A stretch of DNA of 64,000 nucleotides, taken from contig OZ022595.1 in assembly GCA_963669155.1 (NCBI GenBank), forward strand, positions 16,298,312 to 16,362,311, read 5' to 3'. This DNA is from Arbacia lixula. Lineage: Eukaryota; Echinodermata; Echinoidea; Arbacioida; Arbaciidae. Shown here piece after piece: positions 34,335 to 52,200 of the stretch (positions within the stretch are counted from its first letter, which is position 1; every line of letters begins with the position of its first letter). The position numbers and the translations under genes are program-made. A model generated the notes under the pieces. The model ran no database searches. It was not told the DNA's origin and was given only the letters and a program-made list of their open reading frames with translations.

Positions 34335-35115
34335 TTTCATGAAGTCTCTTCATTTGGATAATCTCCAAGCAAGCACGTTACAGCGATTTAAGGTTGATCT
34401 CCTTGGTAAACATTCAGCAGACCATGAGTGTATAGAAACTATTACCATTTCTACCATTGAGTCTCTCAGTGAAATTCTAAATTCATGCAGGCATGTTACA
34501 GAGTTTACGATTGTCCTTCTTGGAATAAATATAGGATAAATTCACTATTAAGTTACTAAGTACAGGTATAACTTCAATGCAATCACGTTTCAGCAATTTA
34601 ATATTGATGTTTTTGGTATACGTTTAGCTGGCCATGAGTGTATAGAAACTTATAACATATCTTTCATGGAGTTGCTCAGTTTTGTCCTAACCTTCCTACA
34701 AGCATGATACAATGATTTAAGGTTGTCCTTCATTAAGTCGGCTATGAGAACTATTCCACTATTGACTTGCTCAGTTAACGATCTCCATGCGAGCATGTTA
34801 AAGAGATTGAAAGTTGATGTTCTTTTATATATATTTAGCTGGCCATTAGAACATAGAAAGACTGAACACCCCTACTATAAAGTCGCTCTGTTTATGCTTT
34901 ATCTCCACGCAAGTACTTAACGCTGGTTTGAGGTTGACCTCCCTGGTAAGCATGAAGCTGGCCTTGAGTAAGTAACCTCCATGCAGACACGTTACAGAGA
35001 TTGGAGGTCGTCTTACTAAGTACACGTATACATTTAGCTGGCCATGAGTGTATATAAGCGCTGAGTTTTGGTTGAACCTCAATGCCAATACTTTATAGAC
35101 TTTAGGTTGTCTTTC
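34335..35115. repeat. Tandem copies resembling the end of the ALS2 last exon
   Basis: About eight degenerate units contain ACGTTACAGAGATT, AAGGTTGATCTCCTTGGTA and TTTAGCTGGCCATGAGTG-like words. They resemble GGTTACAGAGACTTAAGATT and GTCGTTCTTGGTGTACATAT at 35731-35770, where the ALS2 stop codon lies. Spacing alternates between about 90 and 120 bases. Probably transcribed as ALS2 3' UTR. Confidence 0.65.
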
Positions 35116-35648: not shown

Positions 35649-35732
35649 AGTACCGGTAGGTGCCATGCCAATGCGTATATCATATTTTTTCAGTTTTTTT
35701 CAGCCAGGGTAGTAGGCAGCATGCCAAGATGG

Positions 35733-35874
35733 TTACAGAGACTTAAGATTGTCGTTCTTGGTGTACATATAGCATGCCTTGAGCGTGGTGAACATGATAC
35801 CCAGCTTCCCGTGTATGAGATTGGGGTCCATCATGTCGTCGATGAACTGGATCTCCGAGCCGAGGTGCGGTATC
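35733..35874 (-). CDS. ALS2: ALS2 terminal coding exon (end of VPS9)
   Basis: Acceptor CTTGGCAG; stop codon TAA at 35735-35733. It encodes [20 protein letters not shown] and [18 protein letters not shown]. The T-x-L-x-A-C-Y segment carries the conserved VPS9 Tyr. I could not place the polyadenylation site; TTTATT (AATAAA on the minus strand) occurs near 33203 and 32811, which would give a long 3' UTR. Confidence 0.95.
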
Positions 35875-38800
35875 CTGCCAAGAGAGGACAGCAAACAGAC
35901 GAAACAGAACATGAAATCCTTTCATCTTTAAAAGACAGGGTAGCCCATTTACGAAAGTCACTTAAATACTCAATAAATAATCAATAAGGCAGCTATCTTA
36001 AGGCTCTGTTCCTTGCATGCTGCTACCATCTCACATTTACATTTGTGTTGCATTTGTTTATGCCTTTTGTATATCATTCATTTTGCAAAGTAAAATTCAA
36101 CTTGAAGTTGGTAATGAACTCAAATGTCTAAAGAGGAGGTATAAAATAAAGTGATGCGAAGCCTGCCCTCTTAGTCGTACCTTGCTCTGATGACGACGTA
36201 CTGGAAGACGGGGAAGAGGTCGTCCATGGACCAGATGTGGTCCTCCTCACCCTCGACGTTGACGGCGCTGTTGATGCCCTCGAACGAGGCCTCGATAACC
36301 CGCAGCTTGTCGATGGGACAGAAGGTTGTGCTGAGGTTCTGTAAGCTCTCAACTGCATCCAGGAACGATGCATCCTTGATCTCAGTCAACTGAAAGAGAT
36401 GAAGGGATTAATGAGGATTAATGGGGATTAATGGGGATAAACATGATAAACAAGGCCTTGATGACCTACAGCTTGTCAATAGAACAGAAGGTGGTGCTGT
36501 GGGCTCTCCACTGCCTGTAGGTACTACACATCCTTGATCTCAGTCAGCTGAGAGATATGAAGATATGAAGGGATTAAGAAGGATTAATGGGGATTAACAT
36601 GATAAATGCAAACTCAATGACCTACAGCTTTTGAATGGGACAGAATGTGGTGCTGAGGTTCTCCACTGCCTCTGGGAACAATGCATCATTAATATCTGTC
36701 AACTGAGAGAGATAAAGGAATTAAGGAGGATTAATAGGGATTAACATGATAAACAAGACCTCAATGACCTACAGCTTCTTGTTAGGACAGAAGGTGGTGC
36801 TGAGGATCTGTAGGCTTTCTACTGCATCTAGGAATGATGCCTCCTTGATCCCAGTCAACTGAGAGATATGAAGGGATTAAGGAGGATTAAGAGGGATTAT
36901 CCATGTAAGGCCTGATGACCAGCATCTTGTCAATGGGACTGAAGGGGATACTGCCTCTAGGAACAATGCAGCCTTGATCTCAGACAACTAAGAGAGAGGA
37001 AGGAATTAAGGAGAATTAACGGAAATTAGACAGAAATGCAACCTCCCCCTCTGTAACTCAATTACTATGTCATAGCAGCTTTCGGGATAGGTACTGTCAA
37101 GACTATTCTCTCTGTTTCTACACTGTAGGTGTATCTAACATCGAGATCCAGAAGACCTCAAGAGCGATTAGTCTACTTCAGCAAGACGTATTTATTCTAG
37201 GGTTTGGATTAGAAACCTCCAACAGCCAGGAAGCCAAGGTATAATAAACACAACTCACCTTTCCGGGATTAGACAACATAGTTTCCTCGATGTGCCAGAA
37301 TTTCCTGAAAACAAACAAATAAAATGACATTAGTACATGTAAATGTAAATGTAAATAGTAGTAACATCATCAAATAAAAAATAAATAAATGAAATGACAT
37401 TAGTACATGCATATGTAAATAGTAGTAACATCACCAAATAAAAAATAAATAAATAAAATGACATTAGTACATGCATTTGTAATTAGTAGTAACATCATCA
37501 ATTCTACTTTCTTAAAATCCTTCCTCATAATATTGTATTCTTAAATCATCTAATTTCATTTTCATTTGTACAAATGTATATTCAAACAAAAGTGTTAATT
37601 TAATGTACTTCACAATAGTTTCACTATTAAAACTAAGAATTCCAAAAAGGATGTAGCCAGAACTGAAGCTTTGAGCCTAAATTACCATACCTCTCTTTTT
37701 TTTCAATGCAAGTATATATGCCAAATTTCAATGATGAAATCTCTATCATAGTTAATCATTTACATCTAAGCAAAATGTCATATTGATCAGTTTCATAACA
37801 GTCTCTTAAATAGGGGAGTAAATACCAAAGAAGAAAGAGTTTTTGGAATATTACCATACCTCTCTTTTTTTTCAATGGAAGTATATATGCCAAATTTCAT
37901 TAATGAAATCTCTCTCATAGTTAATCATTTACATCTAAGCAAAATGTCATATTGATCAGTTTGATAACAGTCTCATAAATAGGGGATACCAAAGAAGAGT
38001 TTTTGGAATATCGCTCCAGAAATCTACTCACTGGTCGACGCCCAGATACGCCATGAGACCGAGGTCAGACTGCTTGTTGAGCCTGGCCAGCCTGTCTCGA
38101 TACCGCTCGTCCTCCTTCTCATTGCGGAGAGCGTACAGGGTGAAGATGACTGGGTACAGCCGAGGCAGAAGGGTCGGATGAAGGAGGCCCTCGCTGGTGA
38201 TCTGATGAGAGCTGAATGTAGAAAAGAAAAACCAAGTTAACTTGTTGCTCACAGTTAGAAATCTGGGGCTTTGTGGACCCTGGTCCAGTAAGGTCCATTT
38301 GAAGTAGATTTAATTAGCTTTAAAGGGAGTATACTGTAGTTGGAAGACAAAAAGGCCTTCAAATGGTGATCGTGAGCAATCTTCTTGCCAATGGTCTTAA
38401 ATTCATGTATTCGCCATTTTAGAACCTTGATGAACGTTATTTGCCCTCAAATGATCCACATTTGGAAAGATTAGTGATTAATCACAGATCCTCCAAATGT
38501 TCGGGCCGAACAATTTGAGGATTTGTGATTTAATGACTAATTATTCCAAATGTGGGCCATATGAGGGCAAATAACTTTCAGCAAGGCTCTAAAATGGACA
38601 ATACATGAATTTAAGACCATTGGCAAGAAGATTGCTAACAATTACATTTTGAAGGCTTTTTTGCTTCCCAGTACAGTATATGCCCTTTAAGTGGTTAACA
38701 GCTACCACCTGCTGTTAAACACTCTGGTCGATTCTGGGCTTCACCAGGGGCTGGAAACTGTGCAAGCAGCCTGACAAAACTCTTCTTATCCATCTTCATA

Positions 38801-40216
38801 TCCACCTCCATCTACTCCTTCTCTCTTCTCTCTCCTCCTCCTCTCTCTTCTTTCTTTCCCTCTCTCTTCTCTCTGAATTTCTTCTCGCTCTTTCTCATTT
38901 CTTCCTTTTTATCTGATATTTTATTTTGATAACTTTTTACTTCTTTTTATCGCAAAGAGCAGCTGCAAACTGAAAACAGGCCCTAGCATTGATTTGGGTT
39001 TGAAAGATGTTAAATCAATCAATCGATCAATTCCTCGTGAACATAAGAAGTGAAATAATATCTGTATCCGTTCTTACATGTCATCCTCATCCTTCTCCCT
39101 GGACGTGCTGTGGGTTGTGTTGTGGGGTGCGGCAGGGTGTGCGTCACCGTAGTCATAGTAATAGTGGAAATCTGGGGCCTGCTCCACCACAGGGGTCTTG
39201 ACTCTGGGCTCCTCACTGGGCAGGTCTGGGAACAGCACTCTGGAAGAATGGAAATAGGATGATTAACTCTCTGTGTCACATGCACCCTTTTTCTCCACGA
39301 GTAATACACACAGATCCTACTGAGCAGCAGGTTTACTGTCACAAAGTTTTAACCCCCCTTTTTGCTACAATGGATGGTGTTTGATACCATATGTGGATAT
39401 TACTGGCACAAAACTGCATGAGTGATGCATAAATAGTTCAAATTCACAGAGGAAGAGATAAAGAGGAGGATGAGGAGGAAGAGAAAGATGTGAAAGATAA
39501 TGAGGAAGAAGAGGAAAACTTCAGTTCCACCAGAGGGGTCTTGACTTTGGGCTCCTCACAGGGCAGGTCTGGGAACAGCACTCTGGAAGAAGGAAATAGG
39601 ATGATTAGCTCTTTCTGTGCCCTGTGTGCTTTTCTTCACTCACCATGCACACATATTCTATAGAGCAGCAGTTCAAGTGGTACACAATGAGTTAAACCCT
39701 GTTATGCCACAAAGAATGTTATTTGTCTGCGGTACAATTGTATAGCAGACAAATGTTGTTTATATCGTTAATTAATGCATACTTATGTTGGGTACGGGGC
39801 CGTTGCCCCGATGGAATGTAATTTGCATAGGCAGCTCGTACAGGTGTGCGAGCTAATTCTGCCACGGTGACCAGGGCACGTACACGGGTACGTGGCATCA
39901 ATTAGTACGTAATTGAACCATTTTAGCTTGAACTTTCAACGAGACAACTTTTATTTGCAATGAAAGTGTGTTTCCTAAGGTTTGAATTCTAGTCGTTGTC
40001 AGGCTATCCCACAATAATTGAAGTGTATTATTGTGTTATTTGTTTGTTTTGGGAGCCAGAGGGAGGACAGACGAAATAATAAGTGTAATTATAGAACAGA
40101 CTGGTGTTTGGTAGCATGTTTGTGTATTACTAGTACTAGAATGCACCAGTGATGCATAATTAATTCAGAATCATGGATGGGGAGATAAAGTCAGTGAGGA
40201 AAAGGAAGAGTACAAA

Positions 40217-43200: not shown

Positions 43201-46200
43201 AGGATTTAACTGATCGCGGCATATGTTGTTTACTTTAAATAAAATGTGTGGGTATAATAGCTAAGCATACAGTTGTATATTTAGACGTCGACATTTCCCA
43301 TGAGGCACTGCGGATTTTGGGCTGTCCACTACAACCAAAAGGTGGCCCACTGTATTGTAATGATATAGTCTATGTTTTGCTACTACTCTCCATAGTGATC
43401 AGATTTATTGATCACTAATCAAAGAAAAGAAAATGAGGATTGTGCCATTATCATAAGCCAAGCGGTAGCCTGGTGGACAATGGCGCTGCCTGGCAAGCAG
43501 TAGATGCAGCTTCAAGCCCTGCACAGTCCTCTTTCCCTCTGCTTATTTTCTACCAGACGAATCTTATTACTACAACGATTAACTGTACAGCAAAACAAAG
43601 ATTACATCTTGCAAAGAAATTTTAGGCATACACCCAGTAGCAAGGATAGCGTGCTCCATCCTGTAAATGAACAAAAAACAAGTCAGACAAAAATCTTGGA
43701 ACCAGACGGGACTTGAACCTGCAATCTACTGCTTACCGGGCAGCGACTTAACCACGCAATCTATTTCTAGTTCACGGGTCAAGACACAACAACATGGAAA
43801 CAAATACCCGAAACAGTCTCATTTCATCTGACTCATTAATATTCATGAGTAGTTCGCCGTAGGGACAATTCAGCTAGATTTTAGTGAAAGGGCTTTCTGG
43901 GGTAATTTCAATTTACAAAGAAATTTTAGGCATACACCTCAGAAAGCCCTTTCACTAAAATCTAGTTAAAGATTACATCATCGCAGTGGTGATCAATCTT
44001 TAGTTAAACATTGTATCTACTTAATTTTCTGTGTGTATTTAGTCACCACTGATGCACGCAAACCCAATGAAGTCTGGGACCGGGAGTGCTAATAAGCATC
44101 AGTAGATTTAGTAAGATGTATTTTGTGCATGTGTTTTTTTTTCAAAAATACTGCACTAGTGCACATTCACAACACTGAGTATTGATAATGATAATAATAG
44201 ATTCTGCTTATATAGCGCATTATATATATAGTGACATCTCTATGCGCTTTACATGTGAATCCATCATCAAATATATTACTACAAGAAAAATTATGCACTA
44301 TACGAACTATTATTAAGCATGGTATACATAGAACATATTACTAGTGACTGATATTATGAACAAATCCAAAATAGTTATTTCACTAACAGAAATGTTTTAA
44401 GGCGGTTCTTGAATGAGTCAATTGTAGGTGCGGTTCGAATAGAAATGGGAAGTATTATAATGCTTATAGTACATAACACTTGTATAGTGCTTCAAATAAT
44501 GTTTCTATGCATATAAACCAAGGAAATATAAAAATATATAGGAACGAGGACAAGATATAAATATCAATCATATGTTTATTGATATCACACGCGAGACATG
44601 CATCCCTCATGAATATGGACGTTATAAATCCATGAATAATAAACCACATCCTGTTTATAACACCCAAACTCATACCTGAACTTTCCATCTCCCCAAGTTA
44701 GGCGGAAGTATTAAATTTTACATGTTTTCCCCTAATTTGATGGGACAAGTTAATCCAGTAGTGTCTCCTTTGACCTTTTCGTGTTGGAAAGGGGTGGAAA
44801 ACATCTGTGGTATCTTTTAATGCAAATTCAAGGGTACAGTCTGTATATCTAGTCAAAGAATCTAAATCAAAACTAAATAAAATGACTAAATAAAAAGTTT
44901 TTGAAGACAGGGTGACCCATTTGCAAAAGTCATGAAACAGGAAACAGAAGTACACCCTAACCATAACGTGTATAAAATCCTGCACTTATCGCTTCATAAA
45001 CCTTTTTAAGGAAGAGTTAAAAACTATCCTTGTCTACGTTTGAAACATAGCAACAGCAGTCTATAGTCATAATCGTATTGCCCGAGTCAGTGCGCGATGT
45101 GTCAGGGAGCATTCCTCACAGTGAACACATGCACTCTGGTGAAGACCACAGCGGACAGTGGTCTCTGATCTCTATGTTACAAAAAGAGGGAGGGTTTGGA
45201 TGACCCGTCCAAAACTTCCTCGAAATCTAGATATGGCTATGATTCTGCTTAACCCTAATCAGGCCAGGCTTTTTGGACTGTTCTGTGGCCAGGGGGGTTG
45301 ATTCAACCCCCCCCCCCTCTTGAGATCTCAGCCATCGGTCGCGCGATTGCGACAAAATTTGGCACACACGATACCTGTGTCATAATCTTCAAGATTATTG
45401 TGTTATATTTTTCAAAATTGGTAATTGATAATTTAAATTAATTAATCATGCAAAATTGTCAAATGGAAAAACAATTAGGCTTTCATGAGTTTTATGAACG
45501 AGCACTGTTTTCCATAGGAAATGCACACAAAATTGCAAAATTGTGCACGTTTTGGGATGACATGCGTTACGAAAACGGGCGTGGCTCCGTAATGGTATGC
45601 GAATTTGGTCTCAAAAGATGTGCAAGACTTGAAAAAAAAAGTCAAAAAGTGTCGCGTTAAGTCGTTCTAGCGTTGCGGCATTATTGCATGAAACGTCAAG
45701 GTGGGGTTGATTCCCCCCCCCCCCCGACCGTTTTAGGGTTAAAAGGAAAGTCGCTTGCAGTCAGCTGAGCATTTGATCTTAGTTTCCATTGTACGTCTTG
45801 ACTTCTTACCACGCTCTTAACAGGCTCATCCAGGGCACCTTTGCTGAAGGTACCGTTGATCTTGACACCATAACCCAGAAACTTATCTTGACCCCGAACC
45901 CCCCAAAAAATTGTCTTATGACTAATCAGCAATAGCATGCATATAGATCAAGTGCATAGTAATTACAATAGCTGACTGCAATCAATTGCAGTTGCAGTCG
46001 GCTGAGAAGATGATCTTAGTCTCCACTGAACGTCTTGACTTCTTACCATGGTCTCTTGACAGGCTCGTCCAGCGCACCCTTACTGAAGGTACCGTTGATC
46101 TTGACCCCGTCCCCCCAGAGTCCGTTGAACGTCCCCTCCAAGATGTCACCATTCGGCATCGTCAGGATGCCCTTCACAAGAACAAAAAAAATCAGAAATG

Positions 46201-49200: not shown

Positions 49201-52200
49201 CCGGCCAGCACTGGCGTGGCAGTGGTACGCTGAGTGAATTGATCGTCCAAAGGGCGTGAAATTAAAAACACGCAAAATTCATTTTACTCCGCCGAGCGCG
49301 GAAAAATTAATCGCACGGCACTGGAGAATGTTGTGAGTACATTGCAAAAACGACTTCTTCCTGCAAAATATATAATATCTCTCTTACATACCTTCCCATT
49401 GAGTGTGGGTCCTGTTGCTAGCTCTCCCTCATAGCAAGTCCCATCCTCCGTCACCAGCACACCACAACCCTGCAGGCACAGAAACATCAAGCAAAGATTC
49501 TCAGAAATTATGAAACGTTGTTACGATTTCAATAGATCTTGTGCAATTGATAAGTAAAGAACTAGTAACGGAGAAGTTATAACAAGCACAATACCTAAAC
49601 CATTAGTAAGAGTGGTGTCATACCTACATCATTCACGATAACAGCAAGTATGGAGAACACAGAGGAGGAGGAGGATGATAATACAAGAGAAGAGAGGGGA
49701 GAGAAAGAGGCGAACAAGGTGAAGGGATGGTAGAGGAATTCAGAAAAGAAAAGAAAAATCAAATAAGAAAAAAAATTGGGCTTTGTAGATTTTACTGGTT
49801 CCAATAGGTCTACATGGTACATCACAAGTTAAAGGAGATGGTAGAGAAAAGACGAATTATGGAGAGAAAAAACAGAAGTCATACAAAGTAGAACGACCAC
49901 TCACACTGAGTTTGTTGTGAGTAAACACGCCCTCATAGTACACGCCATCCAACGTGATCACCAGTCCATTGCCCTGGCGATGGTCATCTTGCCACATGCC
50001 CATGTACTTCTCCCCACGCGAGTGGTCGTCGATGACCCCGTAACCATGACGCTTGCCGTTACGCCAGTTACCGATGTAGATGTCCTGAACGGCCCCGCGA
50101 CCGACGTTGAACGTTCCGTGCCCGTGTCGGACTCCGTCCTGGAAGTCCCCTTCATAGACGTCGCCATTTTGATACCTTTAGAGATAAAGGATTAAAAATT
50201 AAATTAAAGAACAAGACGAAATAGAGAAAGAGGAGGAAGAAGAAGAAGAAGAAGATGAAGAAGAAAATAGAATAGAATAGAAGATTAAGAAAATAAAACA
50301 GCAATAACAATTGAAAACCTATTTCCGAAAAATACAATTGACATTGGAAGTAGTGTCAATTTGAAAAGTAAATATGTGATGTAAATATTTCCAACCTGTT
50401 GCCAATTTGAAGAAATAGTGAAAATTTCACTTTCACTTGACATTAAAAAAAACACTGCAAAGGTGCTACATTTCACTAAACAACAAATATGGGTTTATTT
50501 TGAGCAGCAATCTGTGCTCTTTCATTTGATGCATGTTTTATAATTTTTAAGAGTTTATATGTAAAGTGATAGCCCTAAGACTATGTATTTGTACGGGATC
50601 CAGTGCTTACCTTAGAACACCAACTCCATGCATCTTGCCCTCAAGCCAGTGACCCTCAAAGACTTCTTGCTGAGATGGGTCTGGGCCTGGGATGGTTAGA
50701 ACGCCAGGTCTAGAGGAGAACATAAGACAGGACAGAACATAGGTAAACTAGTCTGACATTCAGACTTCTTGCTGAGATGGGTCTGGGCCTGGGATGGTTA
50801 GAACGCCAGGTCTAGAAGGGGGAACAAGATAAGACAGGACAGAAAATAGGTAAACTAGTCTGACATTCAGACTTCCTGCTGAGATGGGTCTAGGCCTGGG
50901 ATGGTTAGAACGCCAGGTCTAGAGGAGAACATAAGACAGAATGGAGTGTAAGTAAACTAGTCTGTCTTCCAAACACTTTATATGGCACACTCCACTTCAA
51001 ATTTTTGTGTGCTTTATGTCGTGATGACAAGAATGCTGGGGGATAACCAATCCTTTGGTCTGCAATCAAGAGCAAGGAAATCTTGCATCAACACACTGGG
51101 ATGAGATCCCGTTTTCAAAGGGGAAAAACACCTCCTCGCATAACACGTTGAATGAAGTAAAATGGGTGAGAGTTTGAAGGGGATGAAAAAGAAAGTTTTT
51201 TCTGTTTTACTAGAACACTTGAAATTCACTTGGTTTTCTGCACTAAACTTCAACAGTAGTTACATAGCTGGACTTTAGCATTTATTGCATTTTGTAATGG
51301 AACTCAAAATCTGTCCAGGAGGATTTCTTTTTCTTTTTCTCAGAAAACCAAACGCTGACTTGACATAACAGAAGTGCTTACCCATGCTGTAGACCATGCA
51401 CAAACTGTCCGGTGTACTTTCTCCCATTAGGCCATCTTAACGTTCCCCTTAAGACGGAAAAAACAACACATAAAACAATTTATTAATATATATAGTGTCA
51501 TTGCTATATAGATATACTAGTACATGTACGCAGACCACATTTCAAACTAGTGACTAGTTTTTATCTGTGCTGTAGCTGAACTGTGTTGCAAAGGCACGAC
51601 AAAGCAAATCTGATTTTAATCAATTTGACATTATAAATTCAATGAAATCAGCTATGAAATGTACTGCTACTTAAGACAGCTTTAAACTCTTACATTTTTC
51701 ATTGTAAGTTCATTCAGAAGTTAATTTTGCAAATACATTGTAACTATCCTACCACGGATGGTCTCAACGAATCCTCTAGCATCAATTTCATGCTACAAGG
51801 TAACTTTGTGGGTAATGAATTTTATCATACACAGGAACGGTTTACTAACAGAACACCCCCACAAATGTGGCTGGCGGAGGGTATATTTAGCCCTCACAGC
51901 ACTAAGATTTAAAAATCCCACTCAGTTTCTAAACATTTTCAAGTAGATGGTAATGAAAGTGTTGAGGAGTGCATGCAAAAGATTTTCCAACTGCAAAGTC
52001 GAAGATAATTCATAGGCGAAATTGTTCACACTAAAACCATTAAAATGGCAATCCAGTCCCTAAATATTTGAAACTTTCTCATTAGCTGTTCGATTTTCCT
52101 CAAGATATTTCAACTTTGCTTCTCAGATTTATCGGCTTCAATTGCATGCAACTTGTTTTTGGACTGGACTTTTTAGATTTCTTTCCCACTATAAGATGAA

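Follow-up and report, generated by a model that had tools for sequence, protein, structure and literature searches.

Tandem partial copies of a VPS9 exon edge in the alsin gene of Arbacia lixula: very probably neutral duplicates decaying within an intron

In the alsin (ALS2) gene of the sea urchin Arbacia lixula, a VPS9-domain exon is preceded by a run of partial copies of its own 5' edge, each furnished with an acceptor, which raises the question of whether such an array acts on the splicing of the exon or is the debris of local duplication lodged in an intron. The initial annotation of the window (the whole 64,000-nt stretch of DNA analysed, from contig OZ022595.1) had raised the former possibility, proposing that the spliceosome meets four decoys before it reaches the genuine site.

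The host gene is, on its predicted domain content, alsin, which lies in minus-strand orientation between ~62.8 and 35.7 kb of the window. Pfam profile matches of the window exons were obtained for VPS9 (PF02204, E 3.7e-24 over four joined exons), for MORN (2.9e-14), for PH_alsin (4.5e-9 and 36.6 bits from one exon, which does not reach the curated cut-off of 40; 0.0029 from a second exon) and, weakly, for RhoGEF (0.085), so that MORN repeats, an alsin PH domain and a C-terminal VPS9 domain are found together in one gene, as in alsin. Furthermore, the VPS9 part matches solved Rab5 GDP/GTP exchange factors (4e-6), and we take the exon order to be consistent with that of human alsin. Twenty exons were placed (the gene start was left unplaced), with AG preceding all 20 and GT following all 19 that require a donor; their reading phases fit except at the junction of exons 5 and 6, which suggests that at least one exon is missing there. 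The real VPS9-domain exon (36389-36181, minus strand, 209 nt, PF02204) is the 19th of these 20 and the last but one coding exon, with an acceptor that ends in tcatctctttcag and is followed by TTGACTGAG, and with the donor gtacgact. It is preceded by an exon at 37259-37304 (minus strand, donor gtgagttg) and followed by the last coding exon (35733-35874 up to the stop codon, minus strand). Where the alsin coding sequence ends (about 35732-35775), it is similar to a stretch near 34495-34537 (44 nt, E 4e-7), and this stretch sits in a diverged local repeat (34358-34648 vs 34568-34859). At gathering scores Rfam gave no match anywhere in the window, and the VPS9 exon had no relative in contig collections of bacteria, archaea and viruses (a comparison uninformative about animals).

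In the minus-strand intron between 37259, where the preceding exon ends, and the VPS9 exon stand four tandem partial copies (u1 to u4) of that exon's acceptor edge. When the real unit (36280-36460) was compared to the window by blastn, three copies were matched at 83.8% over 148 nt (E 7e-42), 76.8% over 168 nt (4e-32) and 74.4% over 168 nt (2e-29), and the fourth in two pieces (82.3% over 79 nt, 6e-18; 84.6% over 39 nt, 5e-6); chance similarity, which the initial annotation had allowed for, is far exceeded, and the bodies of the copies are 74.5-82.5% identical to the real exon in the multiple alignment. Each copy consists of an intron tail (TTAAT motifs and a pyrimidine tract) and at most ~100 exon bases, past which the exon likeness fades and intron-like sequence resumes, and the period of 147-156 reported by Tandem Repeats Finder agrees with the ~150-base units originally described. 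The arrangement, in which part of an exon and the adjoining intron are repeated head to tail, is that of a tandem partial-exon duplication. Copy u1 (36909-37045; the ends of all four copies are approximate, and all lie on the minus strand) is exon-like from 36987, behind an acceptor ctctcttag that ends at 36988, and has a 22-nt deletion; u2 (36753-36908) is exon-like from 36858, behind atctctcag ending at 36859, and is open for 29 codons up to a TAG; u3 (36609-36752), exon-like from 36702 with its acceptor ending at 36703, has a 9-nt deletion and is open for 26 codons up to a TAG aligned with that of u2; and u4 (36449-36608), exon-like from 36547 with its acceptor ending at 36548, has an 8-nt deletion in the body and an 8-nt insertion in the intron tail. 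The spacing from each unit to the next is 129, 156, 155 and 158. As to the order of duplication, informative columns conflict among the copies and the identities are close; the TAG common to u2, u3 and u4 is the best hint of an ancestor of these three apart from u1. The real unit has, within its intron tail, a 10-base repeat at 36404-36438 (GGGATTAATG on the plus strand) that multiplies the TTAAT branch-point-like motifs, and motifs resembling these also precede the decoys.

All four decoys retain an AG, a pyrimidine tract and branch-point-like motifs. The annotated CTCTCAG-like acceptor is present in each copy (CTCTCAG in three, CTCTTAG in one) at most 8 bases from the position originally given, and the 20-letter peptide quoted at the time was located in the second copy. 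Position-specific models were trained on the gene's 20 acceptors and 19 donors with the scored site left out (or, when the array was scored, that of the VPS9 exon), and as the acceptor model is noisy with so few training sites, a pooled model was run too. The pooled model scored u1 to u4 at 0.64, -0.88, 2.09 and 0.39 (real VPS9 acceptor: 1.49), with 56 to 152 of 1583 non-exon AGs (decoys counted in) scoring at least as high as each decoy. The position-specific model scored them at -0.45, -8.2, -2.04 and -5.22, as compared to 0.07 for the real site, which itself ranks 238th against the 1583 non-exon AGs. On these scores the decoys and the real VPS9 site alike would be weak, though possible, acceptors. 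Splicing from a decoy to the donor at 36181 would yield exons of 807, 678, 522 and 367 nt (u1 to u4) rather than 209 nt, and in all four copies the frame runs into a stop, as had been annotated, after 36, 29, 26 and 7 codons, respectively. These stops lie 699, 591, 444 and 346 nt upstream of the VPS9 exon donor, in agreement with the earlier expectation of a truncated VPS9 domain upon decoy use. Under the standard exon-junction rule, transcripts with such stops would be targets of nonsense-mediated decay (NMD). Among the GTs of 37040-36300 we found no credible donor, the best scoring 1.18 vs 4.5-12.3 for the 19 real donors (leave-one-out, on a small training set). A decoy or poison exon, bounded by acceptor and donor, is therefore not what the array offers, the acceptors being present and the donor too weak; neither does it constitute a cluster of mutually exclusive exons, which would be whole and frame-keeping, since the copies are about half exons and all carry in-frame stops.

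The state of the copies is one of decay. The first 100 bases of the real exon hold four CpGs and the same stretch of each copy holds none: 0 of 16 homologous CpG sites are kept in the copies, and 13 of the 16 now read TG, CA or TA. The CpG observed/expected ratio is 0.48 in the window and 0.39-0.91 in 20 sampled 10-kb stretches (L011-L030), a spread that would fit patchy methylation. Comparison between the copies revealed no conservation of splice signals above their surroundings, with 9 of 28 columns variable in the acceptor stretch (-3 to -30) vs 29 of 70 in the non-CpG body (p 0.49). A pairwise alignment of u4 gave 14 of 35 intron differences (p 0.025), which in our view stems from misplacement of its 8-nt insertion, and the multiple alignment was used instead. 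With respect to coding sequence, the non-CpG differences between the copies and the real exon fall on the three codon positions as 12:11:30, a lean towards the third that is expected if the real exon itself changes mainly at silent sites; the corresponding dN/dS of u1 is 0.73, and the other copies are at 0.20-0.24. Among the copies themselves the minimum changes by codon position are 11:13:16 (p 0.62), and dN/dS is 1.02-1.06 in pairs with u1, 0.17 for u2-u3 (where third positions hold 13 of 19 differences), 0.53 for u2-u4 and 0.43 for u3-u4. An approximate neutral simulation (a star phylogeny in which the number of changes from a majority sequence was fixed) gave p 0.19 for the mean synonymous excess and p 0.07 for the largest pair. 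In the same simulation a copy stays stop-free over 29 codons with a chance of 0.71-0.81, so that open frames of 26-36 codons in three of the four copies mean little. Taken together, these comparisons do not demonstrate that the copies have been under coding constraint; a small part of the u2-u3 pattern is left unexplained.

Three further exons among the 20 placed also have edge copies, all of them on the minus strand: exon 16 (39239-39078) has one partial copy of its acceptor edge at 39526-39725, exon 9 (50709-50611) has two partial acceptor-edge copies at 50762-50964 (91% and 96% identical), and exon 12 (46171-46047) has one partial copy of its donor edge at 45755-45869 (88% identical). With local duplicates defined by blastn self-comparison (E up to 1e-8, partner at most 1 kb away), 4 of 39 splice edges lie inside duplicates vs 5.0 expected from chance placement (p 0.75); when partners were allowed up to 6 kb, the figures were 4 vs 6.3 expected (p 0.89). 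Local duplicates cover 13.5% of the alsin gene and 9.9% of the window, which places the window on the duplicate-rich side, given that 20 sampled 10-kb stretches, taken from 20 contigs, had a mean of 4.8% (range 0-15.8%). The copies at exons 9 and 16 have a peculiarity of their own. Between the exon 16 copy and its real counterpart (39183-39383), 3 of 57 exonic bases differ as compared to 42 of 142 intronic ones (p 1e-4), with 1 of 29 differing in the last 30 intron bases; for the two exon 9 copies, the differing positions number 2 and 0 out of 50 in the exonic part vs 7 and 4 out of 46 in the intronic part. Constraint on the real exon alone would be expected to yield a roughly twofold gap between exonic and intronic divergence, and plain neutral decay appears to explain that seen at exons 9 and 16 only in part; gene conversion, or some use of these copies, is possible. 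No such gap was found in the VPS9 array.

Outside alsin, a survey of VPS9 matches in the genome returned 8, two of which (L004 and L006) are this alsin gene, leaving six loci (in this survey and the following one, exon borders were read by eye). In only one of the six, ~6 Mb away (L007), is the coding end accompanied by two clear copies of itself; a further one (L003) has a 47-nt copy, and the remaining four (L001, L002, L005 and L008) have none. Both coding-end copies of L007 (1117-1406) lie downstream of that VPS9 gene in the coding direction. In a second survey we took 20 of 38 RhoGEF matches (the best of 24 without internal stops; several share one gene), and 2 of the 20 examined showed donor-edge arrays of three to four copies: four copies, with the GT kept in one, at L035 (1093-1510) and three at L037 (308-732). 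Another match (L036) had one weak 30-nt similarity, a 30-nt tandem repeat just beyond the match at L040 was left uncounted, and 16 of the 20 were devoid of edge copies. The arrays of L035 and L037 mirror the acceptor array of ALS2, and their donors are partly decayed. Within its gene and genome, the VPS9 array does not look special.

We consider it very probable that the array consists of neutral tandem partial-exon duplications decaying in the intron. The unit that would have undergone repeated tandem duplication comprises the 3' end of the intron and the initial ~100 bases of the VPS9 exon; the final copy alone would have remained joined to the remainder of the exon and its donor, and for that reason the others would have become intron. 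The intronic copies would then have decayed neutrally, losing their CpGs (presumably via deamination of methylated cytosine), acquiring insertions and deletions and gaining stops, whereas acceptor-like signals would persist for being short and slow to vanish. From this we infer a neutral history and an absence of function. Decoys may occasionally be used by mistake, giving transcripts with early stops, with no sign of selection for it.

Three other explanations deserve weighing. The array could be a selected set of decoy or poison acceptors, in which the spliceosome engages the four sites and thereby slows removal of the intron or generates NMD transcripts, tuning the level of alsin. In line with this, the four acceptors retained come close to the genuine site in pooled-model score, every use of a decoy would lead to a premature stop far upstream of the last junction, and OGT is among the genes in which intron retention through decoy exons has been described (PMC12017769). 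However, the acceptors are not preferentially conserved among the copies, CpGs have decayed, the best GT of the array falls well short of the weakest real donor (1.18 vs 4.5), and like copies occur at other exons and in other genes (donor-edge arrays included), within the alsin gene at the rate of chance placement; the retention of four out of four AGs would not be unlikely at such divergence. The splicing device suggested by the initial annotation is not borne out by these observations, and we regard selection of this kind as unlikely. The more elaborate proposal, that splicing of the VPS9 exon is held up or redirected by the run of decoy acceptors, with the accumulated copies thereby setting the level of functional alsin, and that the other exon-edge arrays of the genome do likewise for their own genes, appears to us very unlikely.

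Alternatively, the copies could be relics of alternative exons that were once translated and later came to lack their 3' halves and to carry stops, a reading favoured by the low dN/dS of the pairs among u2, u3 and u4, by the frames of u2 and u3 that stay open to a TAG at one aligned place, and by the length of the u3 deletion (9 nt). On the other hand, all copies end near one and the same exon base, as though the unit had never included the 3' half, the u1 pairs show dN/dS around unity, and the synonymous excess stays within the neutral simulation, so that this origin too is quite unlikely. An assembly artefact is scarcely credible, as the units are ~17-30% apart in their bodies (mutually and from the real exon) and carry private insertions and deletions, the ~17-25% that separates the copies from the real exon speaks against a mis-join of near-identical haplotypes, and a search of the 607-Mb assembly (which passes over simple repeats) found the array once, the sole further match being 33 nt on another contig.

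The array has counterparts among described systems. In the potato RdRp gene, a tandem genomic duplication across an intron-exon boundary made a new intron, spliced in RNA-seq reads (PMC4974935). As in that case, the unit comprises the 3' side of an intron and the 5' side of the next exon, and so acceptor, pyrimidine tract and branch site were copied along; unlike in potato, the ALS2 copies are four, diverged, interrupted by stops and devoid of a good donor, and are known from sequence alone. The tandem exon duplications that gave rise to mutually exclusive exons (U2AF1 and others) likewise involve tandem copies with an acceptor, but at ALS2 the copying took in roughly the first half of the exon and left out its donor; duplicated exons that are recognised and introduce stops are reported to be generally downregulated via NMD (PMC5224494). 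Similar to the OGT-type decoy exons of retained introns, the ALS2 units are intronic stretches that bear a splice site and would introduce a stop if included; OGT-type decoys, however, possess both 3' and 5' splice sites and their inclusion was measured in RNA (PMC12017769). Were the ALS2 array functional, it would be expected to act in the manner of these exons. The portion of the literature covered on alsin in connection with alternative splicing, poison exons or NMD mentions no such exons, which at that coverage is no proof of their absence.

The array represents a tidy case of local tandem duplication that proceeds regardless of exon borders, and the acceptor-bearing remnants that such events deposit in introns may be taken for exons by gene finders and read mappers. 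Moreover, as several acceptor- and donor-edge arrays were met within a small sample, this genome would, if RNA showed an effect on splicing, lend itself well to determining the number of decoy splice sites that a gene tolerates.
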